Source of the DNA: Ignisphaera sp.
Lineage (GTDB): Archaea > Thermoproteota > Thermoprotei_A > Sulfolobales > Ignisphaeraceae
Direction of reading: 5' to 3'
Assembly: GCA_038735125.1 (NCBI GenBank)
Contig: JAVYNU010000008.1
Span: forward strand, 1-64,000
DNA length: 64,000 bases
The notes below the pieces were generated by a model. That model saw only the letters and a program-made list of their open reading frames with translations. It searched no databases and was not told where the DNA came from. Position numbers and translations under genes: made by a program. Below, one piece after another: positions 22,134-47,295 of the stretch; the first letter of the stretch is position 1, and each line of letters opens with the position of its first letter.

Positions 22134-22173
22134 CTATCATAATAATTATTGATTACCATACCTAGGTGTGTCT

Positions 22174-23085
22174 ATGTCTTTGCAGCAACCAAAGTTGGTG
22201 TTCCTATTTCTGGATACAGATAAGCATGTAAGTCCTTTTGAGCCTCTAATGGTCGTAGATCTATTTCCAGATGCACATATATTACTATATGGTGGTGTAG
22301 AGCCGCAGGATGTTCAGAGAATTGTTCAAGACGCTATGTTTCCCAGGGGTCCAAAAGGTGTTAGATTCACTAAAATGTTTATAGGTGGATATGATGTGGA
22401 GAAGGTTGAGAAAATTGTTGAGGCAGTCAAAAAAACTATGTTCCCACCCTTCGAATTCTCCGTAGTTATAGACCCTAGAGGAGCTAACACAACAGCAGCC
22501 GCAGCCATTGCAAAAATATATCAAATTTGTATTAAACATGGATTTGGAGATTTTAAAAACAAGAATGTTGCAATCCTAGCTGGGACAGGGCCTGTTGGAA
22601 TGGTTGCAGCATCTATTTTTGGTACTGAGGGTGCCAAGGTCTATATAACTTCTCGTAGCTTAGAAAAGGCAGTTGCTGTTGCAAATAGGGTTAATAAGGA
22701 GCTTGGATTTGAGGCGGTATATGGTGTTAAAGCTCATAGCCAAGATGAGATGTGCAAAGCTATTGAGAATGCAGATCTTGTTTTAGCTGGTGGAGCTGCT
22801 GGTGTCAGGCTTTTGAATCTTGATACCCTTAAAGGTTGTGGAAAGAGGGTGAGGGTTGTTGCGGATGTTAATGCTGTTCCTCCAACAGGTATTGAGGGAT
22901 TGGAGCCAAATGATGAGGATAAAGAGGTTGTTCCAGGTGTTTATGGTGTTGGCGCTTTGAGAATAGGAGCTTTAAAGAATAAGATATTGGCTGAGTTGTT
23001 TAAACGAGCCGTAGAAGCGCCGAAGGGCTTTTTTGAACATAAAGCTGCTTGGGAAATAGCAAAGCAGTTGATTGTAAGTAAGTAA
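22174..23085 (+). CDS. mtdB: NAD(P)-dependent methylene-tetrahydromethanopterin dehydrogenase
   Basis: This enzyme interconverts methylene-H4MPT and methenyl-H4MPT using a pyridine nucleotide. It is the MtdA/MtdB type known from methylotrophic bacteria rather than the F420-dependent Mtd of methanogens. About 303 residues show an N-terminal substrate domain, an IDPRGANTTAAAA segment, a Rossmann loop AGTGPVGMVAA (about 130-140) followed by ITSRS, and a C-terminal DVNAVPPTGIEG segment. I prefer the ATG at 22174, which follows AGGTG, over the GTG six bases earlier. It is the first gene of the C1 operon. Using NAD(P) links the pathway to Nfn at 31-33 kb. Confidence 0.9.
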   Translation: MSLQQPKLVFLFLDTDKHVSPFEPLMVVDLFPDAHILLYGGVEPQDVQRIVQDAMFPRGPKGVRFTKMFIGGYDVEKVEKIVEAVKKTMFPPFEFSVVIDPRGANTTAAAAIAKIYQICIKHGFGDFKNKNVAILAGTGPVGMVAASIFGTEGAKVYITSRSLEKAVAVANRVNKELGFEAVYGVKAHSQDEMCKAIENADLVLAGGAAGVRLLNLDTLKGCGKRVRVVADVNAVPPTGIEGLEPNDEDKEVVPGVYGVGALRIGALKNKILAELFKRAVEAPKGFFEHKAAWEIAKQLIVSK

Positions 23086-23102
23086 AGTAGTTGGTGTGGT
23101 AT

Positions 23103-24032
23103 TTGCTTCAGATAGGTTCTGTAGTTATTGAAGATACATTTGCAGAAGCATTTCCAATGTATGCAACAAGGGTTATTATCACAGCAAAAAGTTTTAGATG
23201 GGCTTTAACAGCTGCCAGAGTTGCAACAGGTTTTGGCACATCTGTCATAGCATCTCCTGGAGAGTGTGGTATAGAAACAATTCTATCACCTAGAATAACA
23301 CCCGATTCAAGACCAGGTGTGACAATTCAAATATATCATACAGATCCTGCAAATCTTAAGTTGGTAACAATTACTAGAATAGGGCAATGCATTTTAACAG
23401 CCCCAACAACGGCTGTATTCAACGGTTTGCCAAAAGCTAAAAGAAAAATGGGTATTGGAAAAGCTCTTGCAAAATTTGGCGACGGTTTTGAAAAAGAGGA
23501 TACACTTTATGGTAGAAAAGTTTGGAGAATACCTGTTATGGAGGGGGAATTCATAGTTGAGGATAGCATAGGTATTGTAAAAGGGGTTGCTGGTGGGAAT
23601 ATACTTATCCTTGCTAAAGATAGTGATGCAGGTTTAGAGGCTGCTGTAAAAGCTGTTAAAGCCATTAGAAAATATGTCAGAGGTGTTATAACGCCATTCC
23701 CAGGAGGGATAGTTAGATCAGGATCGAAGGTAGGGTCGTTAAAATACCCAAAGCTTAGAGCAACAACAAATCATCTGTACTGCCCAACACTTAAAAACAT
23801 TGTTAAAGACTCTAAGGTTCCACCAGAGGTTAACAGCGTATATGAGATCGTGATAAATGGTTTAAAGAGAGAATTTGTTCTTAAGGCAATGGGCATAGCG
23901 ATAAAGGCTGCCTCAACAGTTCCAGGAGTGGTGAAAATAGATGCTGGTAACTATGGAGGTAAGTTAGGGCCTTATCCATTATATCTGAGAGAGGCTTTGG
24001 AGATGGTCAAAAATGTTGATGTAAGGGTTTAG
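23103..24032 (+). CDS. ftr: Formylmethanofuran:tetrahydromethanopterin formyltransferase
   Basis: This soluble enzyme moves the formyl group between methanofuran and H4MPT. The protein of about 309 residues starts with the family's VIEDTFAEAFPM and carries ASPGECGIE, DSRPGVTIQIYH, the CILTAPTTAVFNGLP segment, AGGNILILAK, and GVITPFPGGIVRSGSKVG. I place the start at TTG 23103, which follows GGTGTGG at a good distance and matches the usual family N-terminus; the longer frame begins at 23091. It lies between mtdB and fwdDB, and its stop is directly followed by the fwdDB ATG. Confidence 0.93.
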   Translation: MLQIGSVVIEDTFAEAFPMYATRVIITAKSFRWALTAARVATGFGTSVIASPGECGIETILSPRITPDSRPGVTIQIYHTDPANLKLVTITRIGQCILTAPTTAVFNGLPKAKRKMGIGKALAKFGDGFEKEDTLYGRKVWRIPVMEGEFIVEDSIGIVKGVAGGNILILAKDSDAGLEAAVKAVKAIRKYVRGVITPFPGGIVRSGSKVGSLKYPKLRATTNHLYCPTLKNIVKDSKVPPEVNSVYEIVINGLKREFVLKAMGIAIKAASTVPGVVKIDAGNYGGKLGPYPLYLREALEMVKNVDVRV

Positions 24033-25766
24033 ATGGCAATGCCAAAAGTATATACCTTAGTTACAGGTAGAACCATAGGTCAAGGAGTTTGGATGGAGAG
24101 TGAAGGTAAATGGTCAGAAAAGTATAGAGATGCTGTAGCATATGCCGAGATGAATCCAGATGATATTAAGGAGCTTGGGGCGGTAGATACAATCAAGATA
24201 ACATCTAGCTATGGATCAATAGTGCTATCTGTAAAACCCAGTGATAAAGTGAGGAGAGGAGCAGTATTCATACCGATGGGTCCTTGGGCAAACTTTATAG
24301 TAGATTCAGATACAGATGGAACTGGCATACCGTATTTCAAAAGTACAAAAGTTGTTGTGGAACCTTCCCAAGAGCCAAAAACGACCTTAGCTGATATCCT
24401 AAAAAATCTTAATGCCAAAGTTCTAGAGGTTCCAATGACAGATTTAGAGATTAGATTAGGTGAGAAGAAAGTTTTCAACAATGTTACATGCCCATTCTGT
24501 GGAGATCTTTGTGACTATCTATCTATAGAGGTTAGTGGAACAAAAATTATTAGGAATGTTGGTGGATGCTCAATATCTATTGCAAAGTTTCTTAACTACT
24601 ACAAACACAGAATTTTAAAGCCATATATAAGGAATGACAATAGATTCGTTGAAGTAGATTTGGAGAAAGCCATTGAGAAAGCAACTGAAATTCTTGTAAA
24701 CTCAAAGTATCCTCTAATCTACGGTCTTTCAAATACATGTGTAGAGGCTATAGATATTGCTGTAGAAATTGCAGAGGTTGTCCACGGAGCCATAGACAAC
24801 ACTTCAGTTGTTTGTCACGGCCCAACAATTCTAGCTGCTCAGGAAACAGGTACTGTCACATCAACTTTTGCACCAATACTTCATCTAGCAGATGTAATAG
24901 TTTTTTGGGGCTGTAATCCTAGAGAGGCTCATCAAAACCATATCACAAGGCTTGTAATGTCTAAGGGGAGGTTTATTGAGGGTAGGAAGCAGAGAAAGAT
25001 TATAGTAATAGATGTTAGGAAGACTATGACAGCAGAACTAGCAGATATGTTCATACAAGTTGAGCCTGGAAAAGACCTGGAGCTTCTAAGGGCTTTGAGA
25101 ATGGCTATAAAAGATCTTGAGATAGAGGCTCCTGTTGTTGCGGGGGTTCCAAAGGAAAAGGTGCTAGAGTTGGCAGATATTTTAAGGACAGCTAGATACG
25201 GTGTTGTATTCTTTGGCATGGGTCTCACGCAAAATGATGCAAGGTATAAGAATATTGAGGAGGCAATAAAGCTTGTTCAAGATCTTAATGAATGGACAAA
25301 ATTTGTTCTACTCCCAATGAGAGGGCACTTCAATGTTACTGGAGCTAATCAGGTTCTTCTATGGAATACAGGTTACCCTTATTCAGTTGACTTTACAAGA
25401 GGGTTCCCAAGAATGTACATAGGCGTTACATCTGCAGTTGATTTGCTCTCCAATGGGGATGTAGACGCTGCTTTGATAATAGCTTCAGACCCCGCTGCGC
25501 ACTTTCCAAGGAAAGCCATTGAACACCTTTCCAAAATATCTGTAGTGGTTATTGATGCTAAATGGTCTCTCACTACATCATTTGCAGATGTTGTTATACC
25601 AGCTGGTTTAACTGGTATAGAGTGTGAGGGTACAGCATATAGAATGGATGGCATGACAATATACATGAAGAAGGTTTTAGATCCGCCACCAGGAGTTTTA
25701 TGCGATAGGGAAGTTCTTGAGATGCTTCTTGAAAAGATTAAGGAGTTGAAGGGGCTGAGGACATGA
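24033..25766 (+). CDS. fwdB: Formylmethanofuran dehydrogenase, fused subunits D and B
   Basis: This 577-residue protein joins two subunits that are separate in methanogens. Residues 1-115 match FwdD, the molybdopterin-dinucleotide-binding beta domain (TGRTIGQGV, KYRDAVAYAEM, FIPMGPWAN). Residues from about 145 match FwdB, a molybdenum/tungsten oxidoreductase. Cluster cysteines are visible in CPFCGDLC (C153, C156, C160) with C179, and the metal-ligand cysteine is in VCHGPT (C261), about 118 residues into the FwdB part, as in methanogen FwdB. It would reduce CO2 to formate, or the reverse, within the Fwd complex. All key residues are intact. I do not know this fusion from methanogens. Confidence 0.93.
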   Translation: MAMPKVYTLVTGRTIGQGVWMESEGKWSEKYRDAVAYAEMNPDDIKELGAVDTIKITSSYGSIVLSVKPSDKVRRGAVFIPMGPWANFIVDSDTDGTGIPYFKSTKVVVEPSQEPKTTLADILKNLNAKVLEVPMTDLEIRLGEKKVFNNVTCPFCGDLCDYLSIEVSGTKIIRNVGGCSISIAKFLNYYKHRILKPYIRNDNRFVEVDLEKAIEKATEILVNSKYPLIYGLSNTCVEAIDIAVEIAEVVHGAIDNTSVVCHGPTILAAQETGTVTSTFAPILHLADVIVFWGCNPREAHQNHITRLVMSKGRFIEGRKQRKIIVIDVRKTMTAELADMFIQVEPGKDLELLRALRMAIKDLEIEAPVVAGVPKEKVLELADILRTARYGVVFFGMGLTQNDARYKNIEEAIKLVQDLNEWTKFVLLPMRGHFNVTGANQVLLWNTGYPYSVDFTRGFPRMYIGVTSAVDLLSNGDVDAALIIASDPAAHFPRKAIEHLSKISVVVIDAKWSLTTSFADVVIPAGLTGIECEGTAYRMDGMTIYMKKVLDPPPGVLCDREVLEMLLEKIKELKGLRT

Positions 25767-27484
25767 GTATGTTACTTATAAAAAATGGCATTGTATTTGA
25801 CCCCTTGAATAACATTAAAGGAGAAGTAATGGATATAGCAGTGAAGAACGGCAAAATTGTTGATCCAAAGGAAATCGATGAAAAAAGTGCCATTGTTATA
25901 GACGCTAAGAACAAGGTTGTCATGGCTGGTGGAATAGATATCCACTCACATATTGCTGGGCCAAAAGTCAATGTTGGTAGGATGATAAGACCAGAAGACC
26001 ACTATTTAACTAATAACCCGCATAGACTACCTTATAGAAGAGCTGAAACAGGAATCACAGTACCAAATGTATATAGAATTGGCTATGGTTATGCAAAACT
26101 TGGCTACACATTTGTTGTAGAGCCCGCAACACCACCTATAAAAACTAGACACACACATCACGAGCTCAACTCTATTCCAATCATAGACAAAGCTGCATAT
26201 GTTCTTGTAGACTCTAACTGGATTGCATTAGACTTAATTAAAGAGGAGAAAAAAGATCTTCTAACAGCCTATTTAGCATGGCTTCTCTACGCAACAAAAA
26301 CATATGCATTAAAGCTTGTTGACCCTGGCTCTGATGTTTCATGGGTTCTCAGAGGAAGAGGTATAGACATAGATGAGGAAATACCGCACTACGGCATGAC
26401 ACCAAAAGATATAATAGCATCTATAGCTGAAGCTGCACAGATATTGAACATTCCCCACAAAGTCCACATACACTGTAACAGACTTGGGTATCCAGGAAAC
26501 TATATAACAACGCTAAAAACCGTGAACATCTCTTCAACAATCAGAAAAATTTCTCCTGGACCATCAATGCACATAACACATGTACAATTCACAGGATACA
26601 AAGGAGATTCCTGGGCAACACTAGAAAGCGGTGGCGAGGATATAGCAAAAGAGCTGAACAAAAATCCTGATATAACATTGGATTTGGGGCAGGTAATATT
26701 GGGAAGAACAGCAACAACAATGACAGCTGATGCACCATTTGAATTTGTATTGTACCATTTAACTAGATGGAAATGGGCTAGCAGCGATACTGAAATAGAT
26801 GCTGCATCTGGCATAGTCCCATATAGGTATAGAAAGAAGAGTTATGTCAACACCATTCAGTGGGTTATAGGCTTGGAGATAGCTCTTCTAGCAAAAGACT
26901 TGTGGAGAGTTTTCATAACAACAGATCATCCAAATGCTGGAACATTCTTTGACTATCCAAAGATATTTGCATGGCTTGTAAGTAAAAAAGCTAGGGAGGA
27001 TATGATGAAGGAAGTCAACCAAAGGGCATTGAAGCGTTCTGCCCTACCCTCTATAGATAGAGAATATACCTTATACGACATCGCAATTCTTACTAGAGCA
27101 TCTCCTGCAAAACTTCTTGGACTAGAGAAGATAAAGGGTCATCTTGGTGTGGGTGCAGATGCAGATATAGCTATATATGATATCAATCCATTTGAGGTTG
27201 ATATATCTAAAAACTATGAGGTTGTCACAAAAGCTTTTAGCAGAGCTTGGATAGTTATTAAGGGAGGTGAAATTGTTGTTAAAGATGGGGAAGTTGTTAA
27301 TACAGTTTATGGAAGAACGTTCTATGTTAAGCCAGAGATTCCAGAGGATGTAGAGAAGGACCTGATGAACTATCTGCAGCCAAGATTCAAGGAACTTTAC
27401 ACAGTTACATTAGAGAATTTTGTTATTAGGGAAAAGGAGATTAGAAACCCATTTGAGGTAAAGATTAAAACTTATTTGAGGTGA
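25763..27484 (+). CDS. fwdA: Formylmethanofuran dehydrogenase subunit A (formate-methanofuran condensing amidohydrolase)
   Basis: FwdA is the binuclear-zinc amidohydrolase that joins formate to methanofuran, or hydrolyses formylmethanofuran. The 573-residue protein has all expected ligands: HxH in DIHSHIAG (H61, H63), the likely carbamylated lysine in ALKLVDPG (K184), histidines in VHIHC (H237) and ITHVQF (H273), and the catalytic aspartate in ITTDHPNAG (D388). Its ATG overlaps the fwdDB stop by four bases, indicating coupled synthesis of complex partners. The length is normal for FwdA. Confidence 0.95.
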   Translation: MSMLLIKNGIVFDPLNNIKGEVMDIAVKNGKIVDPKEIDEKSAIVIDAKNKVVMAGGIDIHSHIAGPKVNVGRMIRPEDHYLTNNPHRLPYRRAETGITVPNVYRIGYGYAKLGYTFVVEPATPPIKTRHTHHELNSIPIIDKAAYVLVDSNWIALDLIKEEKKDLLTAYLAWLLYATKTYALKLVDPGSDVSWVLRGRGIDIDEEIPHYGMTPKDIIASIAEAAQILNIPHKVHIHCNRLGYPGNYITTLKTVNISSTIRKISPGPSMHITHVQFTGYKGDSWATLESGGEDIAKELNKNPDITLDLGQVILGRTATTMTADAPFEFVLYHLTRWKWASSDTEIDAASGIVPYRYRKKSYVNTIQWVIGLEIALLAKDLWRVFITTDHPNAGTFFDYPKIFAWLVSKKAREDMMKEVNQRALKRSALPSIDREYTLYDIAILTRASPAKLLGLEKIKGHLGVGADADIAIYDINPFEVDISKNYEVVTKAFSRAWIVIKGGEIVVKDGEVVNTVYGRTFYVKPEIPEDVEKDLMNYLQPRFKELYTVTLENFVIREKEIRNPFEVKIKTYLR

Positions 27485-27489
27485 TTACA

Positions 27490-28338
27490 ATGAGTTATGT
27501 CCTCAAGCTAAAATACTCACCAAAAGTATTGGTTGACGCCAGAAACATTTCGCCAGATAAATTTGCTGGCAAGACTCTAAATGAGATAAAGAAGCTTAAG
27601 ATACTTGAAGGAGGTTATGAAACGACAATAGAAAGTATATTCGATGTTGATGGGCCGTCTCAAGCACCTCAAGATATTAAATCTATTGAGATAACAATTG
27701 AGGGTGGCTCAAACAAGCTGTGTTTTATAGGCTATAGGATGAGTGGAGGAAAGGTAGTCATAAAAGGTGGCGCAGGACACTTCACAGGATATAAAATGAG
27801 TGGAGGAACAATTGTTGTACATGGAAGTGTTAGAGACTATTTAGGATGCAAAATGAAGGGTGGGGTAATAGAGGTTTTTGGCGATGCTGGTCACAGAATT
27901 GGGAGTAAGCTTCATGGTGAAAAATCTGGAAAAGGTATGAGAGGTGGAACAATCACCATACACGGTAATGCCGGCTCGTATGTTGGGTGGGGTGCTGGTG
28001 GTGGAACAATTGTTATTGACAAAAATGCAAAAAACTTTGTTGGCTCTGATATCGCTGGAGCTGTAGTTGTTGTTAAAGGTTCTGCTGGTATATATCCCGG
28101 ATTTGGTATGTCTAGTGGTAGAGTTGTTATTGGCGGTAGGATAGAGTCTATGGCTCCTAGCTTCTACATAGATTCTATTATACCGTCTCTAAAGGTTAGG
28201 GGGATAGCATTTAACAAGCCGTTTGCTACATTCATAGGAGATGTTATCTCTGGTGGGAGAGGATTATTGCAAATATCATATGAAGACAACAAAGATTTTG
28301 TGGATTTATATAAAAACCTTTTGGAGGAGTCTATATGA
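27490..28338 (+). CDS. fwdC: Formylmethanofuran dehydrogenase subunit C
   Basis: This protein of about 282 residues is the right-handed beta-helix subunit related to the glutamate synthase C-terminal domain. Repeats of the form MSGG-VVIKG-AG-YTGY recur about seven times between residues 75 and 240. It probably scaffolds FwdA and the FwdB/D unit. I use the ATG at 27490, preceded by GAGGTGA that spans the fwdA stop, rather than the GTG at 27481. It overlaps mch by four bases. No FwdE, F or G (ferredoxin-like) genes are adjacent. Confidence 0.93.
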   Translation: MSYVLKLKYSPKVLVDARNISPDKFAGKTLNEIKKLKILEGGYETTIESIFDVDGPSQAPQDIKSIEITIEGGSNKLCFIGYRMSGGKVVIKGGAGHFTGYKMSGGTIVVHGSVRDYLGCKMKGGVIEVFGDAGHRIGSKLHGEKSGKGMRGGTITIHGNAGSYVGWGAGGGTIVIDKNAKNFVGSDIAGAVVVVKGSAGIYPGFGMSSGRVVIGGRIESMAPSFYIDSIIPSLKVRGIAFNKPFATFIGDVISGGRGLLQISYEDNKDFVDLYKNLLEESI

Positions 28339-29306
28339 GCCTTGTTAAGATTCCTTCAAAACCCATGAACAAACTAGCTATGCAGATAGTTTCAGATGCT
28401 ATCTCAAGAGAGAAAGAGCTTAACATAGTTGTTACGAAAGTTGGCGGGGCTACTGTTATTGATGCAGGCGTCAAGACTTTTGGTAGTCTAGAAGCTGGTT
28501 TAGTTGTATCAAAAATTTGCTTAGGTGGATTAGCAGATGTATATACAACGCATTTCCAAATTGCTGACATATTTCTACAGGCAGTTGCAGTCTCTACAGA
28601 CTATCCAATAGAGTCTTGTATGGCATCTCAATTAGCTGGCTGGAGAATACAAGTAAAAGACTTTTTCGCAAATGGGAGCGGACCTGCAAGAGCTCTTGCA
28701 AGAAAGCCTAAGAAGCTGTTTGACTATCTAGGCTATGTAGAGCAATCAGATGAAGCTGTAATAGTTCTTGAAACAGATAGATATCCATTTGAAGAAGTTG
28801 TTGAATACATATCAAATGAAGTTAATGTGTCTCCACAGAACTTGTATATAGTCTTAGTCTCTCCTGCAAGCATAGCTGGAAGCCTGCAGGTTAGCGCTAG
28901 AATAGTTGAAACCGGCATATTTAAACTGCATAGCATTGGCTTCAACATAAAAACCATTAGATATGGCTTTGGAGTTTGCCCGATAGCACCTTTACATCCA
29001 GACCCACTTGTAATGGCTGGTAGAACAAATGATATGCTACTTTATGCGGGCTCAACATTCTATATAGTCGACTTCGATGATGATCAAAAACTCAGAGAAT
29101 TCGTTGAAAAAGCCCCGAGTTCTGCATCTAAAGACTATGGAAAGTCGTTTACAGAGCTTGTAAAGATATATGGCTGGGACTTTCTATACAAAGTAGATCC
29201 GCAGATATTTGCACCTGCTGTTATAGTTGTAAACAATGTTAGAACAGGCTCAACATTTAAGGCAGGGGCTATAAACCTTGAAATAATTAGGAAGGTGTAT
29301 TCGTAG
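28335..29306 (+). CDS. mch: Methenyltetrahydromethanopterin cyclohydrolase
   Basis: This enzyme hydrolyses methenyl-H4MPT to formyl-H4MPT or catalyses the reverse. The 323-residue protein follows the family from end to end: GGATVIDAGV, EAGLVVSKICLGGLADV, ASQLAGWRI, GSGPARALA, VLETDRYPFEEVVEY, SLQVSARIVETGI and YGFGVCPIAP, then GRTND. Its ATG follows GGAGGAG within the end of fwdC. It is the last gene of the plus-strand C1 operon and converges on mfnE. With mtdB and ftr it completes the formyl-to-methylene segment. Confidence 0.94.
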   Translation: MSLVKIPSKPMNKLAMQIVSDAISREKELNIVVTKVGGATVIDAGVKTFGSLEAGLVVSKICLGGLADVYTTHFQIADIFLQAVAVSTDYPIESCMASQLAGWRIQVKDFFANGSGPARALARKPKKLFDYLGYVEQSDEAVIVLETDRYPFEEVVEYISNEVNVSPQNLYIVLVSPASIAGSLQVSARIVETGIFKLHSIGFNIKTIRYGFGVCPIAPLHPDPLVMAGRTNDMLLYAGSTFYIVDFDDDQKLREFVEKAPSSASKDYGKSFTELVKIYGWDFLYKVDPQIFAPAVIVVNNVRTGSTFKAGAINLEIIRKVYS

Positions 29307-29321
29307 TATACATCCCCAAGC

Positions 29322-29975
29322 CTAACACATCACTGTTGTGTATTCCCCCTCAACACCCTTGACAATATCCTTTAAAATCCAAGGCTTTTTCACATTGAAT
29401 ATTGCAACCTTTATGCAAAGGTTTTCAACAAGTTTTGCAACATATTCGTCAACAACATTTTGAGTAATTTTCTCAAAATCTTCAGCTCTAATCCTCTTAA
29501 TCAACCCTCCTCTAGCATCCTTAACACCATCAACCACCTTTCCTAGGCATACAAGCCCACACCCTATTTTAGATGCTATGAAAATTGCTATAGAGTCGCT
29601 TGTAACGCTCCAGCTATGTGGAAGCTCATCAAATTTTCTCAAAATTGTATATGGCATTACAATAGGTATTCTATTATTTGATAGAATGAAGCTAATATCT
29701 TCTATGCTATAAGCCTCTTCAAATAACGGGCTAAAACTCTTTATGTATGTTCCGTAAAGCTCCATAGCCTTTATAGCCATCCAATGGGCTGTATCATTGT
29801 CAAATCCGATCTCTTTTTGAATATCTCTGATAAGGTCTGCAAATATGCTTCCACCTGGCAAAATAACAACTCTAATTCTATCTCTATGAAGATCTTCAAT
29901 TTCTTTAACAAGACTTTTTAAAGAATTTGCATCCTTTATTAAATGACCTGAAATTTTTATAACGATACAGTTCAT
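29322..29975 (-). CDS. mfnE: Amino acid kinase family protein, methanofuran biosynthesis kinase MfnE
   Basis: This 217-residue protein has the amino-acid-kinase fold: KISGHLI at the N-terminus, a VILPGGSIFADL phosphate-binding loop, and a SVTSDSIAIFIASKIG segment. MfnE phosphorylates the aminomethylfuran-methyl phosphate intermediate to the diphosphate used for methanofuran assembly. The assignment rests on the fold, the short length and its four-base overlap with mfnF. Other small amino-acid kinases (uridylate or isopentenyl phosphate kinase) are less likely given this context. Confidence 0.82.
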   Translation of the reverse strand: MNCIVIKISGHLIKDANSLKSLVKEIEDLHRDRIRVVILPGGSIFADLIRDIQKEIGFDNDTAHWMAIKAMELYGTYIKSFSPLFEEAYSIEDISFILSNNRIPIVMPYTILRKFDELPHSWSVTSDSIAIFIASKIGCGLVCLGKVVDGVKDARGGLIKRIRAEDFEKITQNVVDEYVAKLVENLCIKVAIFNVKKPWILKDIVKGVEGEYTTVMC

Positions 29976-31048
29976 TTATTCAAAACCTCTTCGGCCACCA
30001 TAGCAGCTACAGCATATGATGGAAAAACAGATGCTATTCCATATCCAACAACATCGTCTATATCGATAACCTCTCTAAAGCCTGCTCTTCTACACGCCTC
30101 CACAGCTATATGCTTACCAATACCTGCTACAATAGCTTTAAAATCATCTAGCCTAATCTTTTGTGATGCAAGCCAGCTTCTTATCTGCATAAGAGCTTCG
30201 AAGACTTTAAACACTTGCACTTCATAAATGTATCTAGCTATCTCAATAACCTCTTCAACACTAAGCATCTTGGCATCTGCACAAGGAACTCTAGCTATTC
30301 TCGCAACTGCCTCTTCAAAGCTTCTCCCCCTTCCATCAGCTGTTTCTGTGGAATACTCATCACTTTTTATATACCCTAAAACAAGATGTACATCACCTGA
30401 CAATGCAAATCTCTCCGAAGAGACCCTGGCAAAAAATCCTTTATACGGAACTTTATCGACTATAGCACATACATTAGTTCTCAGAACACCTGTGTAAACA
30501 AGCTCTCCATACACAAGCTTTTCGGGATCTGTATAGCCTCTCGTAAATGTTTTCCCATCTACAATTGGTATAATCGTGGTTGTTGTACTCCCAATATCCA
30601 CGAAAACAATGTTTCTATAACCTTTCTCAACAGCTATTCTCTCTAAAAGCCATGCAGATGCGACCCAATTAGAAGCTGCAAACATCATTGGATTCTTTAA
30701 AACATCTTCGAAAACCTTTAAATCCATGTCAAGAGACACAAAATAATTCTCTATAGAATCGCTAAAAACACTTTCAACTAATTCAGCAATACTCATAACA
30801 CCAACATCTTTAGATACAAAAACATCGCTTAACTCAGCAGTCATTGAAGCACCTACATAATACTCCCCCGATCTAACACCAAACCTCATTCTAATATCCT
30901 TTAAAATACTAGCTATAGACCTTGGACCCAAAATCCAAATAGGGTTGTATACCCTTACAACATCTTTAACGGCAAAAGAGCCATTTTCGTATAGAACCTT
31001 AACAGCTTTTATATTAGCCCCGCCAATATCAAGTCCAATGAAGATCAT
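29972..31048 (-). CDS. mfnF: Methanofuran biosynthesis protein MfnF (H4MPT-linked C1 pathway protein)
   Basis: MfnF couples the furan diphosphate to glutamyl-tyramine, making the aminomethylfuran-phenoxy core of methanofuran. The fold is of the hydantoinase/actin-like ATPase type: IGLDIGGANIKAV at the N-terminus, NWVASAWLL, VDIGSTTTTIIPI, RGYTDPEKLVYGELVYTGVLRT and a late VAGIGKH. I place the start at ATG 31048, which has GGGGTGGG ten bases upstream; a longer frame to 31126 lacks this. It overlaps mfnE by four bases and is divergent from nfnA. Confidence 0.87.
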   Translation of the reverse strand: MIFIGLDIGGANIKAVKVLYENGSFAVKDVVRVYNPIWILGPRSIASILKDIRMRFGVRSGEYYVGASMTAELSDVFVSKDVGVMSIAELVESVFSDSIENYFVSLDMDLKVFEDVLKNPMMFAASNWVASAWLLERIAVEKGYRNIVFVDIGSTTTTIIPIVDGKTFTRGYTDPEKLVYGELVYTGVLRTNVCAIVDKVPYKGFFARVSSERFALSGDVHLVLGYIKSDEYSTETADGRGRSFEEAVARIARVPCADAKMLSVEEVIEIARYIYEVQVFKVFEALMQIRSWLASQKIRLDDFKAIVAGIGKHIAVEACRRAGFREVIDIDDVVGYGIASVFPSYAVAAMVAEEVLNK

Positions 31049-31207
31049 TTTTGACAACCCACCCCAAATATTTCTAGCTTTGGAACTTATATCAATATAG
31101 CTATTTAAGAATCGTTTAAACAACATCTTTGCTTTATAATGGTCTCTAATAAAATCTCTTAGAAATTATCAATATAATTGTCTGGTTTTAAAACATTTTA
31201 ACCAAAA

Positions 31208-31220: not shown

Positions 31221-31286
31221 GTTTGTGCTCCTCTTGAATATAGCTAATTGGTATCGTCAAGCTTGTGCATTGTGCAGGTGAAGATG

Positions 31287-32132
31287 ATGAGTTTCGAAAT
31301 AATCGGTAAGAAGAGTCTTGCTGAAGGTATTGTGGAGATGGATGTCCATGCCCCTAGAGTTGCCTGTTCTGCGAGACCTGGCCAATTTGTTATTGTTATG
31401 GCATGCGAAGAGTGTGAGAGAATACCTCTCACACTTGTTGACTGGAGCTGTAGGGATGGATGGATTAGACTCGTTTTCCAGGAGGTTGGTGTGTCAACAT
31501 ATAAACTTGGTATGATGAATGTGGGTGATAGGCTTTATCATGTTGTTGGACCCTTGGGCAACCCTACACATGTTGAGAAATTTGGTGTTGTCGCTGTTGT
31601 TGCTGGTGGTGTTGCTATAGCGGCCGCATATCCGATTGCCAGGGCTTTTAGAGAAGCTGGCAATATTGTCGTGTCTTTTATTGGTGCAAGAACCTCTAGG
31701 CTACTCATATACAGAGACTACATTACAAAGATTAGCGATGAGATGCATATCTCCACTGACGATGGTTCTGAGGGCTTCAAAGGATTTGTTACGCAGCTTC
31801 TTGAAAAAAGGTTTGCAGAGGGCTTCAAGCCAAATCTTGTATGGGTTGTTGGTCCTGCACCAATGATGAGAAGCTGTAGTGTTGTGACAAAACGGTTTGA
31901 GATTAAGACTATTGCCAGCTTGAATCCTATTATGGTTTGTGGCATGGGCATGTGTGGTGCTTGTAGGGTTCGCATTAAAAACGAGATTAGATTCACATGC
32001 GTTGATGGACCCGAATTCGATGCGTGGGATGTGGACTGGGACGAGCTGATCCAAAGGCTTTCTGCCTATCGAGAGGAAGAGTCCTATGCATTGAAGCTGT
32101 TTTTAGAGAGTAGGAAGGTTAAAGGTGGATAA
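31287..32132 (+). CDS. nfnA: NADH-dependent ferredoxin:NADP+ oxidoreductase (Nfn) / sulfide dehydrogenase, small subunit
   Basis: This protein of about 281 residues has an FAD-binding ferredoxin-reductase domain (ARPGQFVIVMA, RIPLTLVDW, the FQEVGVSTYKL segment and VVGPLGNP), an NAD-binding domain and a C-terminal [2Fe-2S] site with CGMGMCGACRV and a fourth cysteine in RFTCVDGPEFD. That is the pattern of NfnA. The complex exchanges electrons between NADPH, NADH and ferredoxin. Start: ATG 31287 with AGGTGA five bases upstream; an in-frame ATG at 31284 is also possible. It is coupled to nfnB with a gap of three bases. Confidence 0.9.
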   Translation: MSFEIIGKKSLAEGIVEMDVHAPRVACSARPGQFVIVMACEECERIPLTLVDWSCRDGWIRLVFQEVGVSTYKLGMMNVGDRLYHVVGPLGNPTHVEKFGVVAVVAGGVAIAAAYPIARAFREAGNIVVSFIGARTSRLLIYRDYITKISDEMHISTDDGSEGFKGFVTQLLEKRFAEGFKPNLVWVVGPAPMMRSCSVVTKRFEIKTIASLNPIMVCGMGMCGACRVRIKNEIRFTCVDGPEFDAWDVDWDELIQRLSAYREEESYALKLFLESRKVKGG

Positions 32133-33512
<1,380 letters not shown>

Positions 33513-33809: not shown

Positions 33810-34769
33810 CTATGTATTAATCAGATGTATGACATCTCCAACATATACTTTGGTTATGGTATTCTCTTTCGTTCTTATTCTTAGAGCTCCATCATCCTCT
33901 ATATCTTCTGCAACGCCCTCTATTTCTTGATTAAATGATATTACCTTTACTTTTCTACCTATTGTTGATGAGAGTTTTCTCCACTCATTTAAAATTTCTT
34001 TTTCCTCTTGTCTAAGCCTTGTATAGACAATGTCAGTATTCTTGATTATGTTGATTAGAAGTGGTATCCTGGGTATGTCAGAACCCATGACCTTCTTTAA
34101 TGTTGTTGCCGTGTCCAAGAGGTGGTGAGGAAGATCATTATTGACATTGACACCTATGCCAAGAACTATATGGCGAATCTGATCAGCTTCTAAAACACCT
34201 TCTATGAGTATTCCAGCGACCTTCTTTTCACTAACCAGAACATCGTTTGGCCACTTAACCCTTGCCTCGATATCAAGCAGACTTTTTATAGCCTTTGCAA
34301 CAGCAACAGATGAGGCAAGGCTTAGTAGATGCATGTTTCTAAGATGCTTTGGCTTGAGAATTATTGAGAGCCATAGCCCCCCTCTAGACGCTATCCATTG
34401 CCTGCCCATCCTGCCTCTTCCACGCTTAAGCTCCTCAGCAATGACGACAGTACCCTCTGGAGCACCACTAGACGCTAGGGCATGTGCTACATCTTGTGTT
34501 GAGTCGCACGAGTCTAGATAGTGTATATAGTATCTAAGGCTTGTGTCAATGAACTCGACATATCTATGTGCATGTGAAATATTGTCGAGGTCGGCAAGTC
34601 TATAGCCGAGCTTCGGATGAATCTCAACTATAAAGCCTTTGGAGATAAGCCTCTTAATAGCTCTGTTAATAGTTGCTCTTGAAACCCCCAGGTACTTGGC
34701 TATCGAGGCTCCAGATACATAACCTCTGCTCATCAGAAGAATCCTCAAAACCTCGTCCTCAATCGCCAT
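33810..34769 (-). CDS. birA: Biotin-protein ligase with N-terminal HTH (BirA)
   Basis: Residues 1-65 form a winged helix (LGVSRATINRAIKRLISKGF), and the rest is a biotin-[acetyl-CoA-carboxylase] ligase with CDSTQDVA, the biotinyl-AMP loop GRGRMGRQW, KWPNDVLV and GIGVNVN. Like E. coli BirA it could both attach biotin and repress transcription. It is the last gene of a biotin uptake operon, and palindromes at the bioY promoter are candidate operators. The length is 319 residues and all ligase motifs are intact. Confidence 0.93.
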   Translation of the reverse strand: MAIEDEVLRILLMSRGYVSGASIAKYLGVSRATINRAIKRLISKGFIVEIHPKLGYRLADLDNISHAHRYVEFIDTSLRYYIHYLDSCDSTQDVAHALASSGAPEGTVVIAEELKRGRGRMGRQWIASRGGLWLSIILKPKHLRNMHLLSLASSVAVAKAIKSLLDIEARVKWPNDVLVSEKKVAGILIEGVLEADQIRHIVLGIGVNVNNDLPHHLLDTATTLKKVMGSDIPRIPLLINIIKNTDIVYTRLRQEEKEILNEWRKLSSTIGRKVKVISFNQEIEGVAEDIEDDGALRIRTKENTITKVYVGDVIHLINT

Positions 34770-34786
34770 GCACCAAACCCGAGATA

Positions 34787-35392
34787 TTATCTTTGCCTGT
34801 CTAATCTAAGAATTTTTGACCTCGTTAAAATAGCTTCTACACTCTGTATAGAGGAGTAGAGAGCCAGGAATAGAAACGCCTTTACAGATAATACAAAAGT
34901 TTCAATCCTATCTAGATAGGAGTTGCAAGGCAGGTTATTTCTGTATAGCCTGTATATAAATGTCCACTGCATGGGAAGAGACTTCAGCATTTTCACTGAT
35001 AGTGCTAGGGATATGCCCAACGTTGGGGATAGCCTATATGAAAACTCTAAGAGCTTCGGTATGTTTACACAGCTTATCAAAGATATTGATACTGTTGCAA
35101 CAGCAGCAATTCTGAGAATGTTTATAAGGATAATGCTGACATCTACAAAGCCGATCACAATGAATTGAATGATAGATGCGAGTAGCGTGTAGATAGTAGC
35201 AAGAGGTGTAACAACCTTTGCAACACTGGCTAGCGCCCCTAGATTTATAAAGATCGACGATACGATGACGGCGACGAGGATGGCGAGTAGAAGCTGTGTG
35301 TTGCTAAGCATCGATACAGCTATTGCTATCGCAACTGCAACAGATATTGCTTGTATTGGATGCAGAGTCTTTCTACAGGAAGTGCCGCTCAA
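34787..35392 (-). CDS. ecfT: ECF transporter transmembrane component EcfT (biotin module)
   Basis: This 201-residue membrane protein has several hydrophobic helices (clear ones about 11-65 and 66-105) and a cytoplasmic coupling region around SVKMLKSLPMQWTF, where EcfT proteins carry Ala-Arg-x motifs; these are degenerate here. It lies between the double ATPase and birA and overlaps the ATPase by four bases. With BioY and EcfA it should form the energised biotin importer. The weak coupling motif is the only oddity. Confidence 0.8.
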   Translation of the reverse strand: MSGTSCRKTLHPIQAISVAVAIAIAVSMLSNTQLLLAILVAVIVSSIFINLGALASVAKVVTPLATIYTLLASIIQFIVIGFVDVSIILINILRIAAVATVSISLISCVNIPKLLEFSYRLSPTLGISLALSVKMLKSLPMQWTFIYRLYRNNLPCNSYLDRIETFVLSVKAFLFLALYSSIQSVEAILTRSKILRLDRQR

Positions 35393-36660
35393 TTACCATT
35401 CCCATTCAATGGTTTTACAACACCATCATCAATTATATAAACCTTGTGAAGCCTCTTCGCAAAATCTAGGTCATGTGATGCCACAAGAATTGCCTTGTCT
35501 TCCTCAAGCATGTTGTTAAATGATTTTAGCATAGACTCCCTAGCTATGCAGTCAAGCCCTAGCGTGGGCTCGTCAACTATAATCACATCGGCTTTTGATA
35601 TATATGCTAGTGCCAGCGACAATAGCCTTGCCTTTCCAATGCTAAGACTGTAAACATTTCTATACATTTCATTGCCTAGTCCAAACATCTCCAAGACATT
35701 TTCTACGCTATCTCTAAACCTGTGTCTATTGGCGAAAAGCTTTGCAACTCCTTCTACAGTGTCGCTTGGGAACCAGTAGACAGGGTTTTGAGGAATAACA
35801 AAAATCTTCTTTTCTCTGTAGACAGCCACCCTACCACTAGACGGCTTTATGATGCCGGCCAACACATTTAACAGTGTTGTTTTTCCCGATCCGTTTCTAC
35901 CAACAATTGCCACAGCCTCCCCAAGACCCACTGAAATGCTGGCCCCCTTGAGAATATGTCTGCCGCTGAGCACAACACCTATGTTCTCGGCCGATATAAC
36001 TGCATCTCCTGTGCCAACGCCTCTAAGAATCGTATTTCCACTGCATGTAAATGGTGTTTTCCCAATCTCTATAAAGATGTTGCAGAACCTCTTAACGAGG
36101 TCTATCCGATGATCAACCAACATTATGGCGACGCCATTCCTTTTAGCAAAAACCTTTAAGTAGTTGAAGACCTCTTCTATGCTCCACCAATCGATATGTG
36201 AAGATGGCTCGTCTATGGCTATAAGCTTAGCACCACCTGCCAGTGCCGAGTAGAGTAGGAATCTGTATAGCTGGCCATCAGAAAGCCTGCTAATATCTCT
36301 ATCTAGATTAGGACCGCAATCGCATTTGTCTATCCCTAGGATTGCAAGCTCTTCTCTAGGGGTAGAAGCTATGAAGAAACTGTAAACATCTTGGGGAACA
36401 TATGCTACAAGCCCTCTACGCAAAGCCTCTGACGGGCTCAGCCCACAGACTCTGACACTACCTTCAACTCTAAACCCTTTGTACAGCTCCTGCAAAACAC
36501 CTGTAACAACCTTGAGAAGAGTTGTCTTGCCGGAGCCTGTTGGACCAAAAACGCATGCAACATCACCTTCGCCAATACTTAGCGAGACCTCCTTCAAAAT
36601 CTGTGTTTCTCTAAACCAAACAGACAGATTGTTAACATCGAGGATTCTACCCGAAGACAA
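35389..36660 (-). CDS. ecfA: ECF transporter ATPase, two fused ABC domains
   Basis: This protein of about 423 residues contains two ABC ATPase domains in one chain, equivalent to an EcfA-EcfA' pair. Domain 1 has FGPTGSGKTTLL and a LIAIDEPSSHIDW Walker B; domain 2 has VGRNGSGKTTLL, a SIGKARLLSLA signature and a VIIVDEPTLGLD Walker B with a SHD switch. I place the start at TTG 36660, which follows AGGGG and overlaps the bioY end by 14 bases. The longer frame to 36711 lies inside bioY and looks unrelated to the family. Confidence 0.9.
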   Translation of the reverse strand: MSSGRILDVNNLSVWFRETQILKEVSLSIGEGDVACVFGPTGSGKTTLLKVVTGVLQELYKGFRVEGSVRVCGLSPSEALRRGLVAYVPQDVYSFFIASTPREELAILGIDKCDCGPNLDRDISRLSDGQLYRFLLYSALAGGAKLIAIDEPSSHIDWWSIEEVFNYLKVFAKRNGVAIMLVDHRIDLVKRFCNIFIEIGKTPFTCSGNTILRGVGTGDAVISAENIGVVLSGRHILKGASISVGLGEAVAIVGRNGSGKTTLLNVLAGIIKPSSGRVAVYREKKIFVIPQNPVYWFPSDTVEGVAKLFANRHRFRDSVENVLEMFGLGNEMYRNVYSLSIGKARLLSLALAYISKADVIIVDEPTLGLDCIARESMLKSFNNMLEEDKAILVASHDLDFAKRLHKVYIIDDGVVKPLNGNGN

Positions 36661-37321
36661 TGCCCCTGCCCTCGAAATATCTAGCCAAAGCCTTTGCAAC
36701 GGCAACTGCAATCACATGGTCCATGAGCATATCCTGCGGAACAAAAACAGCTACTGTGGCAATGAACAGTACTAGAATCTTGTTTCCAGAAACACCAACA
36801 AAGCTAGCAATTTTCGAAGCCCAATTAAACAAATTGGCATTGGATAGGACATACCATGTGAAGACAGCAAAACCCAGGATATAGACTGGTAGGACAGCCA
36901 CAGCAGATAGCAAAACCAGAGAAACAGCATCTCTAAAACCGATATCGCTCAATCTAATGCTTCTCCTCCTAAGATAGAACCTCGATAAGATGCTCATCAA
37001 GAGAGATGCAATTGGGAAACCAGTTATATAGCCGCCTGTAGGCCCAATCAAAACATACAGTCCACCTCTAAACCCAGCTGCAACAGGCAGGCCAACAGCA
37101 ATCAAAAGAATGTACAGAGACTGGGAAAACAATGCGTATTTTGGTGGCAGAAGCAGACCAGATAAGATAATCCCCACATTCTGCATGGTGTATGGGACAG
37201 GCCCTAGATAGAAACTTGCCTGAGCCATTATACCAGTTACAACAGCTAGCACAACAGATACAACAAGGTAGTAGACCTTCTCACCTATAGACATTGTTCT
37301 GTTGTCGTTCATTGGTATCAC
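36647..37321 (-). CDS. bioY: Biotin transporter substrate-binding protein BioY
   Basis: BioY is the S component of the biotin ECF transporter. The protein has about six membrane helices and the family motifs GPVPYTMQNVG, YILLIAVGLPVAAGFRGG, GPTGGYITGFP and the late DHVIAVAVAKAL. At 224 residues the length is normal. The GTG start at 37321 lies about 28 bases downstream of a TATA box, so the mRNA is nearly leaderless; ATG 37312 is an alternative. It leads a four-gene operon ending with birA. Confidence 0.92.
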   Translation of the reverse strand: MIPMNDNRTMSIGEKVYYLVVSVVLAVVTGIMAQASFYLGPVPYTMQNVGIILSGLLLPPKYALFSQSLYILLIAVGLPVAAGFRGGLYVLIGPTGGYITGFPIASLLMSILSRFYLRRRSIRLSDIGFRDAVSLVLLSAVAVLPVYILGFAVFTWYVLSNANLFNWASKIASFVGVSGNKILVLFIATVAVFVPQDMLMDHVIAVAVAKALARYFEGRGIVFG

Positions 37322-41055: not shown

Positions 41056-42285
41056 TTATATGCTTGTATATGATTTTATATAGGTGGTCATCGGCTCATT
41101 TCCGTTTGGGGTGGTTTGTCGGGTTTCATTCTTCATTCCATCCCCGTTGGGGGAAGACCCAAGGCTTCCCCACATCCCCCGTAGGTAGATGTTTATTGCT
41201 CCAACAAAATCCCTGTCTCTTTTGAATCCGCATTTCCTGCAGATTGCCAGTCTATGTATGTAGTTTAACTTTGTGCCGCACCTTGGACATGTTGATGATG
41301 TGTTTCTTGGGTCTATAATGAGTATTGGAACGTTGTACTCAATGGATTTGGCTATAATAGTATGTTGAAGCTTTCTATAGGCAAATAGCGTTAGCCTCCA
41401 CCTAACACCATTGTTTTTGCCATTGATAGACTCTCTCAGATGCTCTAAATCCTCTAGTACAACTGCGTGTCCTCTTCTATATGCTTTAACTACAACCTCC
41501 TTTGCTAGTTTCCAGCAGAAATCGTTGATGATGTTCCTAGCTCTTCTATGGAGAGCTCTAACCCTGTTTAGAATCCTCTCGTTGTATCTCCACCTCTTAG
41601 GATACTTCTTCTGAAGTTCCTCGGCTCTAGCCCTCTTGCTCAATGCCTCGACAAATCTTGTTCTATACCTTCTAGCCTCAGAGCCATCGAATGTTGTAAC
41701 AGCTCTCAGATTCACATCAACTGCTGTGAAGCCTTTTGGAGCATATGGATTGTACCTGACCTCGAAGACTATACTGATATAGATTTTCTTGTTCTCATAC
41801 TTTACATGAACTTCCTTCCACCTCAAGTTTTTGAATTTCTCGATGTACTCCCTCCTATGCTTTAATCTAAGAGTATATTGCTTGTCTCTCAAGACAACTT
41901 TGACAACTCCTTTGTCTAACTCAACTCTTGCATCTTGGTAGTCTAGTCTAGCAGATAGTTTTCTGACACTCGGCTTGTCGCCATTGCTATTCCTAGCCGA
42001 TTTCACTAGAGCTAGCGCATAGCTGTAGATATTTCTAGCTACGTGTGCTCTAAAGCCATATTCTCTAAGCATTGGGTAGAACATTTGATGCAACTGGCTT
42101 TTCTTTGGAAGCCCATCCAAATCCCATAGAGCGTCTACAACCTTTTGCAGAGCATACCTATATACCGCCAAGTCCCACAGCAAATCACTAACACTACATT
42201 CGACCACCTCAGCCCCTGTCTTGAGAGCCTTGCGATATGCACCCTCAGACATCCACCTACAGCCTAGGCGGATAAACGCCTTCAT
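41056..42285 (-). CDS. tnpB: IS200/IS605-family TnpB (RuvC-like RNA-guided nuclease)
   Basis: This 409-residue protein is a compact Cas12-like nuclease ancestor. The RuvC triad is intact: D190 in AVDVNLR, E278 in VVLEDLEHL and D359 in RDRDFVGAINI. A zinc ribbon lies between (CPRCG at 333-337 and CRKCG at 349-353). No tnpA transposase accompanies it. The last 35 codons overlap a foldback (GGGGAAG with CTTCCCC), as expected for the guide RNA scaffold. The stop codon lies at the junction with the interrupted M24-like gene. Confidence 0.92.
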   Translation of the reverse strand: MKAFIRLGCRWMSEGAYRKALKTGAEVVECSVSDLLWDLAVYRYALQKVVDALWDLDGLPKKSQLHQMFYPMLREYGFRAHVARNIYSYALALVKSARNSNGDKPSVRKLSARLDYQDARVELDKGVVKVVLRDKQYTLRLKHRREYIEKFKNLRWKEVHVKYENKKIYISIVFEVRYNPYAPKGFTAVDVNLRAVTTFDGSEARRYRTRFVEALSKRARAEELQKKYPKRWRYNERILNRVRALHRRARNIINDFCWKLAKEVVVKAYRRGHAVVLEDLEHLRESINGKNNGVRWRLTLFAYRKLQHTIIAKSIEYNVPILIIDPRNTSSTCPRCGTKLNYIHRLAICRKCGFKRDRDFVGAINIYLRGMWGSLGSSPNGDGMKNETRQTTPNGNEPMTTYIKSYTSI

Positions 42286-44683: not shown

Positions 44684-45728
44684 CAAAATGGGCTTGGGCG
44701 ACATAATTATAAAGGTTATTGAGGCTTTGGCAAGGTGGGCTAGAAGTAGAAGCATCTGGATGCTTCACTACTGCTCAGCTTGTGGCGCTGTGGAGTTCCC
44801 AATGCTTGTGATGTCTCCGCTTGACTGGGAGAGATATGGTTATATGCCAGCGCCGACACCAAGGCAATCAGATATATTCATCGGCATGGGATATCTGACT
44901 AAGAAAACAGTTAAACTTGTCTTGAATATGTATAGACAGATACCCGAACCGAGATATGTTGCCGCTGGGTGTAACTGTACTGCAACAGGCGGGCTTTACT
45001 GGGATAGCTATGCAACCTATAAGAGGTTGGATGAATTTGTTGAGGTTGAGGGGTGGGTACCAGGATGCATGCCAATGCCAGACGACTACCTCAGCCTAAT
45101 AGAGTATCTGAGAAACAGAATTGGCGAATCAGACCAGGCAAAGGTAATTTCTAGGATAAAGCCTGAAGCATTCAATAAGATAGCAACTTACGAAGAGCTT
45201 GAGAAGAGGTTTCTAAAGGAATACATGGAAAAGCTGGCTGCCTCAAGCCAGAAGCCCATAGACTATCAATTCAAGTCAACGTTTCCAGAATGTTATGAGA
45301 GAATAGAGAAGAGTAAAATATGTAAGACAAGCATTGAAAGAGATAGGGTAAGGGACGCAGTTAAATACTATCTTGAAAAAGGATACAAAATATTGGTGAA
45401 TATCAACGCTGTTGACTACCCAGAGAAAAACGTTATAGAAATTTACTACATATTTGAGAATCCCTATTCAGGCGAGCAAATATGGATAAAGACTTTTGTT
45501 ACAAGGACAAACCCCGAGATGGACACTATACACGATCTAACCCCATTGGCATTCTACATAGAGAAGGAAGTATACGAAATGATGGGGATAGTATTCAAAG
45601 GTCATCCAGACCTCAGGAAATGGATTCTAGATGGTAATTGGGAGGGCCCACCACCACTTAGAAAAGACGTTAACACTGCTGACTTTGTTGTGAAGGTGAT
45701 GTACAATGGCTATAGGTATGGAAGGTAG
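44673..45728 (+). CDS. Fused NuoB-like and NuoC-like subunit (MbxJ-MbxK)
   Basis: Residues 1-165 are a NuoB/MbhJ-type subunit with cluster cysteines CSAC (C34, C37), GCNC (C100/C102) and VPGCMP (C132) for the proximal [4Fe-4S] centre. Residues from about 220 are a NuoC/MbhK-type subunit (VNINAVDYPEKNVIEIYYIF and EVYEMMGIVFKGHPDLRKWIL). In MBH/MBX operons these are separate genes; here they form one chain of 351 residues. The downstream overlap with the large-subunit gene is 23 bases. Confidence 0.9.
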   Translation: MVDSKMGLGDIIIKVIEALARWARSRSIWMLHYCSACGAVEFPMLVMSPLDWERYGYMPAPTPRQSDIFIGMGYLTKKTVKLVLNMYRQIPEPRYVAAGCNCTATGGLYWDSYATYKRLDEFVEVEGWVPGCMPMPDDYLSLIEYLRNRIGESDQAKVISRIKPEAFNKIATYEELEKRFLKEYMEKLAASSQKPIDYQFKSTFPECYERIEKSKICKTSIERDRVRDAVKYYLEKGYKILVNINAVDYPEKNVIEIYYIFENPYSGEQIWIKTFVTRTNPEMDTIHDLTPLAFYIEKEVYEMMGIVFKGHPDLRKWILDGNWEGPPPLRKDVNTADFVVKVMYNGYRYGR

Positions 45729-47288: not shown

Positions 47289-47295
47289 TTGTGTT

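Follow-up and report, generated by a model that had tools for sequence, protein, structure and literature searches.

A putative F420-independent Wood–Ljungdahl pathway in the archaeal genus Ignisphaera, with MtdB and a candidate MetF-type reductase

The closest described systems to the genes discussed here are found in other archaea. Altiarchaeales have a modified Wood–Ljungdahl pathway with an NADP-dependent methylene-tetrahydromethanopterin (H4MPT) dehydrogenase and methylenetetrahydrofolate reductase (MTHFR) (PMC4975002), and for the anaerobic methanotrophic archaea ANME-1, MetF has been proposed to take the place of Mer (PMC9012536). For the genus Ignisphaera, Chistoserdova 2016 reports H4MPT/methanofuran genes in some members and their absence from others, and calls the role that they have in such non-methanogens 'enigmatic' (PMC5020050). 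A hot-spring study inferred its Ignisphaera metagenome-assembled genomes to be fermentative and screened for the pathway via carbon monoxide dehydrogenase/acetyl-CoA synthase (CODH/ACS) and formate-tetrahydrofolate ligase (PMC8579995), a screen that may overlook an H4MPT version. Here we describe a block of one-carbon (C1) genes, mtdB-ftr-fwdDB-fwdA-fwdC-mch, in a boiling-spring archaeon of this genus, Ignisphaera sp. (genome G000 in our numbering; 1.81 Mb, 12 contigs, 99.9% complete). The whole stretch of DNA analysed, hereafter the window, is 64,000 nucleotides long (G000:C8:1-64000).

It is likely that the block covers one half, from CO2 to methylene, of a complete H4MPT Wood–Ljungdahl pathway in which MtdB and a MetF-superfamily protein (here METFL) replace the coenzyme F420-dependent enzymes Mtd and Mer, and F420 synthesis has been lost. 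With less confidence, the balance tilting slightly in favour, we propose a crenarchaeal Wood–Ljungdahl pathway wholly without F420, in which METFL, as a short and previously unrecognised MetF-type methylene-H4MPT reductase, and MtdB took the place of Mer and Mtd inside a single genus, possibly through two separate MtdB acquisitions, letting the cell drop F420. Gene content, motifs, gene linkage and the two alternative enzyme sets are observed directly in the genomes; the reaction of METFL and the other enzyme activities, the use of NAD(P), the reductive direction, the lack of F420 beyond CofD and the order of events are inferred from them.

The C1 gene block and the rest of the pathway

The six genes are tightly packed on the + strand (22168-29306), and the eight genes named in a preliminary description of the window (mtdB to mch, with mfnE and mfnF) lie where it had placed them, its limits of 22174 and 31048 corresponding to ATG start codons inside mtdB and mfnF, respectively. 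The first gene, mtdB (22168-23085, ATG start probably 22174), encodes an NAD(P)-type methylene-H4MPT dehydrogenase with Mpt_N (Pfam PF09176, 2e-21) and Rossmann domains and full-length similarity to the MtdA structures 6TLK, 6TGE and 1LU9 (1e-47). By its Mpt_N domain and MtdA similarity it is of the pyridine-nucleotide type, as first described, and its predicted cofactor is NAD(P)H. It is followed by ftr, for formylmethanofuran:H4MPT formyltransferase (23091-24032; NF002554, 1.7e-123), the fwdD-fwdB fusion for the catalytic subunit of formylmethanofuran dehydrogenase (24033-25766; TIGR03129, 2.5e-152), fwdA for the amidohydrolase subunit (25763-27484; TIGR03121, 2.8e-221), fwdC (27481-28338; TIGR03122, 5e-60) and mch, for methenyl-H4MPT cyclohydrolase (28335-29306; TIGR03120, 7e-113). 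These five scored above the curated NCBIfam cut-offs (Ftr 411.8 against 297, FwdB 507 against 328, FwdA 736 against 393, FwdC 203 against 131, Mch 377 against 229). The FwdD model matches the first 125 residues of the open reading frame (ORF) that encodes FwdB (6e-28), and FwdDB is therefore a real fusion.

FwdB, aligned to 5T5I_B, carries a [4Fe-4S] CxxCxxxC motif (CPFCGDLC) and a CHGP cysteine that matches the tungsten ligand Cys118. In FwdA, the metal-binding histidines, lysine and aspartate are all conserved (alignment to 8RJA_A and 5T5I_A). As these redox and metal motifs are intact, the enzyme is a redox-active formylmethanofuran dehydrogenase, methanogen-like as originally stated; a bacterial Fhc-type hydrolase was considered and ruled out on the same motifs. 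The order of all six C1 genes is identical in the congeners G024, G013 and G074, so the contig is not chimeric here, which had been raised as a way in which the preliminary description could fail.

The genome was searched family by family with single named queries. McrA was not found, the same search being positive in two control methanogens, and neither were Mer, F420-type Mtd or CofD (2-phospho-L-lactate transferase), the last of which was found in G044 and G061. Together with the family matches, the lack of McrA bears out a non-methanogen crenarchaeote with a complete CO2/formyl-to-methylene set and methanofuran genes. The preliminary description had left mcr, mer, mtr, fae, glyA and CODH/ACS to be sought in the whole genome; the last three were all present, and MtrH, the one Mtr subunit searched, has a homologue (C5:58456-59355). 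Fae is encoded outside the C1 operon (C2:60747-61220), and a GlyA-type serine hydroxymethyltransferase (SHMT) at C6:99163.

The CODH/ACS cluster (C5:64302-78357) comprises genes for a CooC-like protein, CdhA, CdhB, CdhC, CdhD, CdhE, the corrinoid activase RACo, a second CooC-like ATPase, METFL and an ADP-forming acetate-CoA ligase. CdhA (1150 bits against a cut-off of 781), CdhC (613 against 356) and CdhE-gamma (568 against 306) were all above threshold. The genome holds two CdhD/E-family ORFs; the G074 orthologue of CdhD (delta) exceeds the TIGR00381 cut-off and the own copy is 77% identical to it, and no NCBIfam model matched the ORF assigned as CdhB. Directly upstream lie genes for MtrH-family, MfnB-type and HisA-like proteins, an MptN-like RimK ligase, a CofE-like protein and an MfnD-like ATP-grasp protein. 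A NiFe hydrogenase large subunit with both NiFe cysteine pairs is encoded at C4:30864, and likewise in G013, G074 and G044. In G013 a single island of about 47 kb (C5, about 14.6 to 62 kb) unites the C1 module, CODH/ACS, cofactor genes and hydrogenase, in the order Fae, adenylate kinase, acetate-CoA ligase, METFL, RACo, CODH/ACS, cofactor genes, Mch-FwdC-FwdA-FwdDB-Ftr-MtdB, NAD(P)H-type flavoprotein with FeS protein, and hydrogenase operon. The presence of CODH/ACS, RACo, acetate-CoA ligase, MtrH and a MetF-family protein in the genome, together with this island, identifies the C1 block as the upper methyl branch of the Wood–Ljungdahl pathway. Thus the gene set of the branch stood as first described, but its proposed end point at methylene-H4MPT did not.

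Two kinds of genes close to these clusters were noted separately. The CofE-like protein (PF01996; L048:10891-11817, homologues in L157, L158 and L162) persists in genomes without CofD, its gene adjoining Ftr in G034 and G052 and cofactor genes elsewhere; it may ligate glutamate to methanofuran or H4MPT. MtaA/CmuA-like proteins of the URO-D family, all weak matches, are encoded near CODH/ACS (L049:12027-13130) and near Fae (L019:15654-16982), where they might take part in methyl transfer.

In the proposed pathway, CO2 would be reduced onto methanofuran by the ferredoxin-linked Fwd (FwdDB, FwdA and FwdC). Ftr would transfer the formyl group to H4MPT, Mch would catalyse the cyclisation, and MtdB would reduce the product with NAD(P)H. 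METFL would then reduce methylene- to methyl-H4MPT with NAD(P)H in place of the F420-dependent Mer, and CODH/ACS (CdhABCDE), kept active by RACo, would join methyl and CO into acetyl-CoA, which the adjacent ADP-forming ligase could convert to acetate and ATP. A SudBA/Nfn-type enzyme and the group-4-type NiFe hydrogenase are predicted to exchange electrons among ferredoxin, NAD(P)H and H2. We favour the reductive direction, as an acetogenic electron sink or a CO2-fixing route, because of the acetate-forming ligase, the fermentative relative and the analogy with Korarchaeia (PMC10667645). Of the two roles suggested at first, CO2 reduction came nearer, although its main outlet would be acetyl-CoA rather than serine and glycine, whereas formaldehyde oxidation was weakened by the distribution of Fae.

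On the opposite strand (29322-31126) are two methanofuran-synthesis genes that are also paired in G024, G013, G044 and G049: one for an mfnE-like kinase (29322-29975; NF040622, 1.2e-35, under the model's cut-off) and one for an mfnF-type protein (29972-31126, ATG start probably 31048), which is above the cut-off of TIGR03123 (1.4e-85; 287 against 244) and below that of NF040623 (7e-62). A SudBA/NfnAB-like pair comes next on the + strand (31248-33512), consisting of a sudB/nfnA-like FAD/NAD-binding subunit (31248-32132; NF004862, 5.6e-109) and its sudA/gltA/nfnB-like partner (32136-33512; TIGR01316, 2.3e-181), both above cut-off. Such a pair adjoins FwdDB in the distant G357 (L150), and in G402 (L142, G402:C9) it lies within about 19 kb together with CODH/ACS, Mtd and an MtdB fusion. 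Because it recurs beside C1 genes in this way, the pair is a probable NAD(P)H-ferredoxin link within the pathway.

Probable exchange of the redox steps within the genus

Eleven genomes of the genus were searched (G000, G002, G013, G024, G034, G044, G052, G061, G068, G074 and G098). The congeners are draft genomes in which an absence may be an assembly gap; eight of those in the comparison are at least 93% complete, and G098 is 75% complete. The search for CODH/ACS covered the family, with G124 lying outside it. Ftr and CdhD occur in all eight pathway-positive genomes (8/11), and the redox enzymes come in two sets. G044 and G061 have F420-type Mtd, Mer and CofD, and in them MtdB and METFL were not found; the other six (G000, G013, G024, G034, G052 and G074; MtdB orthologues in 6/11) have MtdB and METFL, and in these Mtd, Mer and CofD were not found. 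The association of six against two genomes gives a Fisher p of 0.036 with phylogeny ignored. Ignisphaera aggregans (G002) and G068 have none of Ftr, MtdB and CdhD and keep METFL, Fae and SHMT, and G098 retained Fae alone among the genes tested. G068 (L154, G068:C1:62001-82000) is a close relative with neither CODH/ACS nor Ftr; here the genes for METFL, acetate-CoA ligase, adenylate kinase and SudBA now stand side by side, as if the island had been excised.

Since Mtd/Mer/CofD and MtdB/METFL occur as alternative sets, with Ftr and CODH/ACS kept in all eight genomes, the ancestral F420 steps appear to have been replaced by MtdB and METFL within the genus, and F420 synthesis has probably been lost in the MtdB-type genomes, its marker CofD being gone. 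The operons are otherwise colinear, running Ftr-Mtd-FwdDB-FwdA-FwdC-Mch in G044 and G061 as against MtdB-Ftr-FwdDB-FwdA-FwdC-Mch here. In G034 the operon is Ftr-FwdDB-FwdA-FwdC-Mch (likewise in G052 up to the contig end) and MtdB instead adjoins METFL, in G052 inside the CODH/ACS cluster; the same adjacency is seen in G049 and G136. In G044 and G061 the gene beside MtrH is Mer; in I. aggregans it is METFL. The tree of the modules places those of F420 type outside all MtdB-type modules, including those of the non-genus genomes G124 and DRTY, whereas CODH/ACS is about equally close throughout. In the MtdB tree, G034, G052, G049 and G136 group with G407, from a more distant family, apart from G000, G013, G024 and G074, which suggests separate acquisitions of MtdB in Ignisphaera-like genomes; a constraint to a single MtdB clade was not rejected (AU test, p 0.062).

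MtdB was found in 55 of the 398 sampled Thermoproteota genomes, and the earlier characterisation of the enzyme as one known from methylotrophic bacteria was thus too narrow. In several other Thermoproteota (L140-L146 and L148; G458, G411, G402, G384, G467, G323, G268 and G451), MtdB forms the C-terminal half of a protein of 570-600 aa, usually adjoining F420-type Mtd and often Ftr. The N-terminal part of about 250 aa matches no Pfam family; it was considered as a METFL-type reductase and rejected, having no match to METFL.

METFL itself is a protein of 256 aa encoded within the CODH/ACS cluster (C5:75350-76120). Among solved structures, a phmmer search with METFL as the single query gave no useful match. 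A profile of 25 METFL homologues from the order had the Thermus thermophilus MTHFR as its top match (3e-4), and of the 25 sequences in the wider alignment, 7 have a PF02219 match with an E-value up to 1, the best being 8e-8. Glu9 is invariant in the 25-sequence alignment, and Glu9 and Asp95 align with Glu28 and Asp120 of Escherichia coli MetF (by MAFFT, and by a local HH alignment of 46 columns with E 6e-4; the global HH alignment failed). In MTHFR these are the catalytic Glu, which ends the first strand, and the Asp in contact with the pterin; mutating either position nearly abolishes turnover, and the Glu is common to Mer and Mfr (PMC11094777). The MTHFR-profile match, the PF02219 matches and the aligned acidic residues make METFL the best candidate for reducing methylene-H4MPT in genomes without Mer. 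Its position beside MtrH in I. aggregans suggests that it originally supplied methyl groups for biosynthesis and was later recruited or retained by the pathway.

Weighing the alternatives

Several points weigh against the proposed pathway and its history. The exchange goes back to few independent events, probably one or two switches; the loss of F420 synthesis is read from CofD, the one marker gene searched, and a CofE-like protein remains. METFL by itself had no match to PF02219, another Pfam family or NCBIfam above threshold, and it is also present in I. aggregans and G068, both without CODH/ACS and Ftr, so that it is not specific to the pathway and may serve methionine synthesis. Finally, the genes themselves do not fix the direction.

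This last point bears on the strongest alternative, which we nevertheless consider unlikely: that the pathway runs in reverse, oxidising acetyl-CoA or methyl groups (entering via MtrH and URO-D-type methyltransferases) to CO2, with the electrons passing to H2 or sulfur compounds. The enzymes are reversible, MtrH and the weakly matching MtaA/CmuA-like proteins are encoded, several congeners have group-4-type hydrogenase operons linked to the pathway, and oxidative operation has been discussed for Korarchaeia (PMC10667645). However, a methyltransferase/corrinoid cassette was not found inside the island, the ADP-forming acetate-CoA ligase of the cluster is of a kind that usually forms acetate, and I. 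aggregans, a relative in culture, has been described as a fermenter (PMC3035270).

It is somewhat less probable still that METFL is not a methylene-H4MPT reductase, in which case the methyl branch would be broken and CODH/ACS would draw methyl groups from another source. Its scores below all family thresholds and its occurrence where CODH/ACS was not found would agree with this, but METFL and Mer are reciprocally present in the eight pathway-positive genomes, METFL adjoins MtdB or MtrH, and it has both the homology to the MTHFR profile and the two conserved acidic active-site residues. A role limited to assimilation, with the branch merely yielding methylene- or methyl-H4MPT for serine, purines and methionine, seems improbable. 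A GlyA-type SHMT is encoded, and METFL, MtrH, SHMT and Fae are all that I. aggregans has of this gene set; yet the module is linked to CODH/ACS, ligase and hydrogenase, and since I. aggregans lives without Fwd, Ftr, MtdB and CODH, C1 biosynthesis does not need them.

MtdB serves formaldehyde oxidation in methylotrophic bacteria, and the presence of a Fae gene would allow formaldehyde, for example from reversed ribulose monophosphate (RuMP) pentose synthesis, to be joined to H4MPT and oxidised to CO2 by MtdB, Mch, Ftr and Fwd as in methylotrophs. We regard this as very doubtful and reject it as the main role, as the occurrence of Fae does not track that of the module (G002, G068 and G098 have Fae and no Ftr, G044 has Ftr and no Fae; Fisher p 1.0); Fae also lies outside the C1 operon, and the gathering of CODH/ACS, RACo and cofactor genes on one island would be left unexplained. 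The methanogen-like Fwd, Ftr and Mch might speak for an ordinary methanogen or for a contig that is chimeric, but both can be dismissed, with no McrA or Mer in a 99.9%-complete genome and the module syntenic in several independent congeners.

Other features of the window lie apart from these questions. A Mrp/complex I-like gene set of MBX type (43157-51220) has a large subunit without NiFe cysteine pairs and is therefore probably no hydrogenase. An ORF with a Cas12f1-like TNB domain (41056-42285) is probably a transposon-associated nuclease, and biotin protein ligase, an ABC ATPase and BioY form a cluster for biotin uptake and use (33810-37321). ARAGORN found no tRNA genes across the window (1-64000).

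Comparison with known systems

A literature search, its coverage being that of journals outside subscription, found no paper on CODH/ACS in Ignisphaera. The accessible part of Chistoserdova 2016 makes no mention of CODH/ACS, of the split between Mtd/Mer and MtdB/MetF or of a role (PMC5020050), and the linkage to CODH/ACS offers a testable answer to the question of what these genes do in non-methanogens. A genus of hyperthermophiles that has been described as fermentative would also gain a potential route for CO2 fixation or acetogenesis. The formaldehyde pathway of methylotrophs (MtdB, Mch and Fhc) resembles the block in its MtdB, Mch, Ftr and FwdA/B/C homologues, but the Ignisphaera FwdB keeps the FeS and tungsten-ligand cysteines, and CODH/ACS is present.

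The homoacetogenic pathway of Korarchaeia and Bathyarchaeia, in the same phylum Thermoproteota, shares Fwd-Ftr-Mch, CODH/ACS, the ADP-forming acetyl-CoA synthetase and the lack of Mcr (PMC10667645). In contrast, the Korarchaeia of that study use F420-dependent Mtd and Mer (PMC10667645), as do the sister genomes G044 and G061. Close relatives that run one pathway chassis on either F420 or MtdB with a MetF-type enzyme would form a natural experiment in redox-carrier exchange in an ancient carbon-fixation route. In ANME-1, too, a MetF-family protein is proposed to replace the F420-dependent Mer in an H4MPT pathway, but F420 and Mcr are kept and MetF is paired with MetV (PMC9012536), whereas this Ignisphaera is without Mtd, CofD and Mcr. 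For other archaea that lack Mer, METFL offers a concrete candidate for the reductase that is missing.

The likeness to Altiarchaeales covers the H4MPT-type pathway, an NADP dehydrogenase and MTHFR in place of F420 enzymes, and acetyl-CoA decarbonylase/synthase (PMC4975002). Altiarchaeales belong to another archaeal phylum, F420 dehydrogenase is among their core genes and their MTHFR is annotated as such (PMC4975002), whereas METFL falls below family thresholds and in Ignisphaera both enzyme sets alternate within one genus. Already known are thus the H4MPT/methanofuran genes of some Ignisphaera and the pathway with MtdB and MTHFR in Altiarchaeales; new are the complete pathway, the exchange, within a genus, of the two F420 steps along with CofD, and METFL as the candidate reductase.

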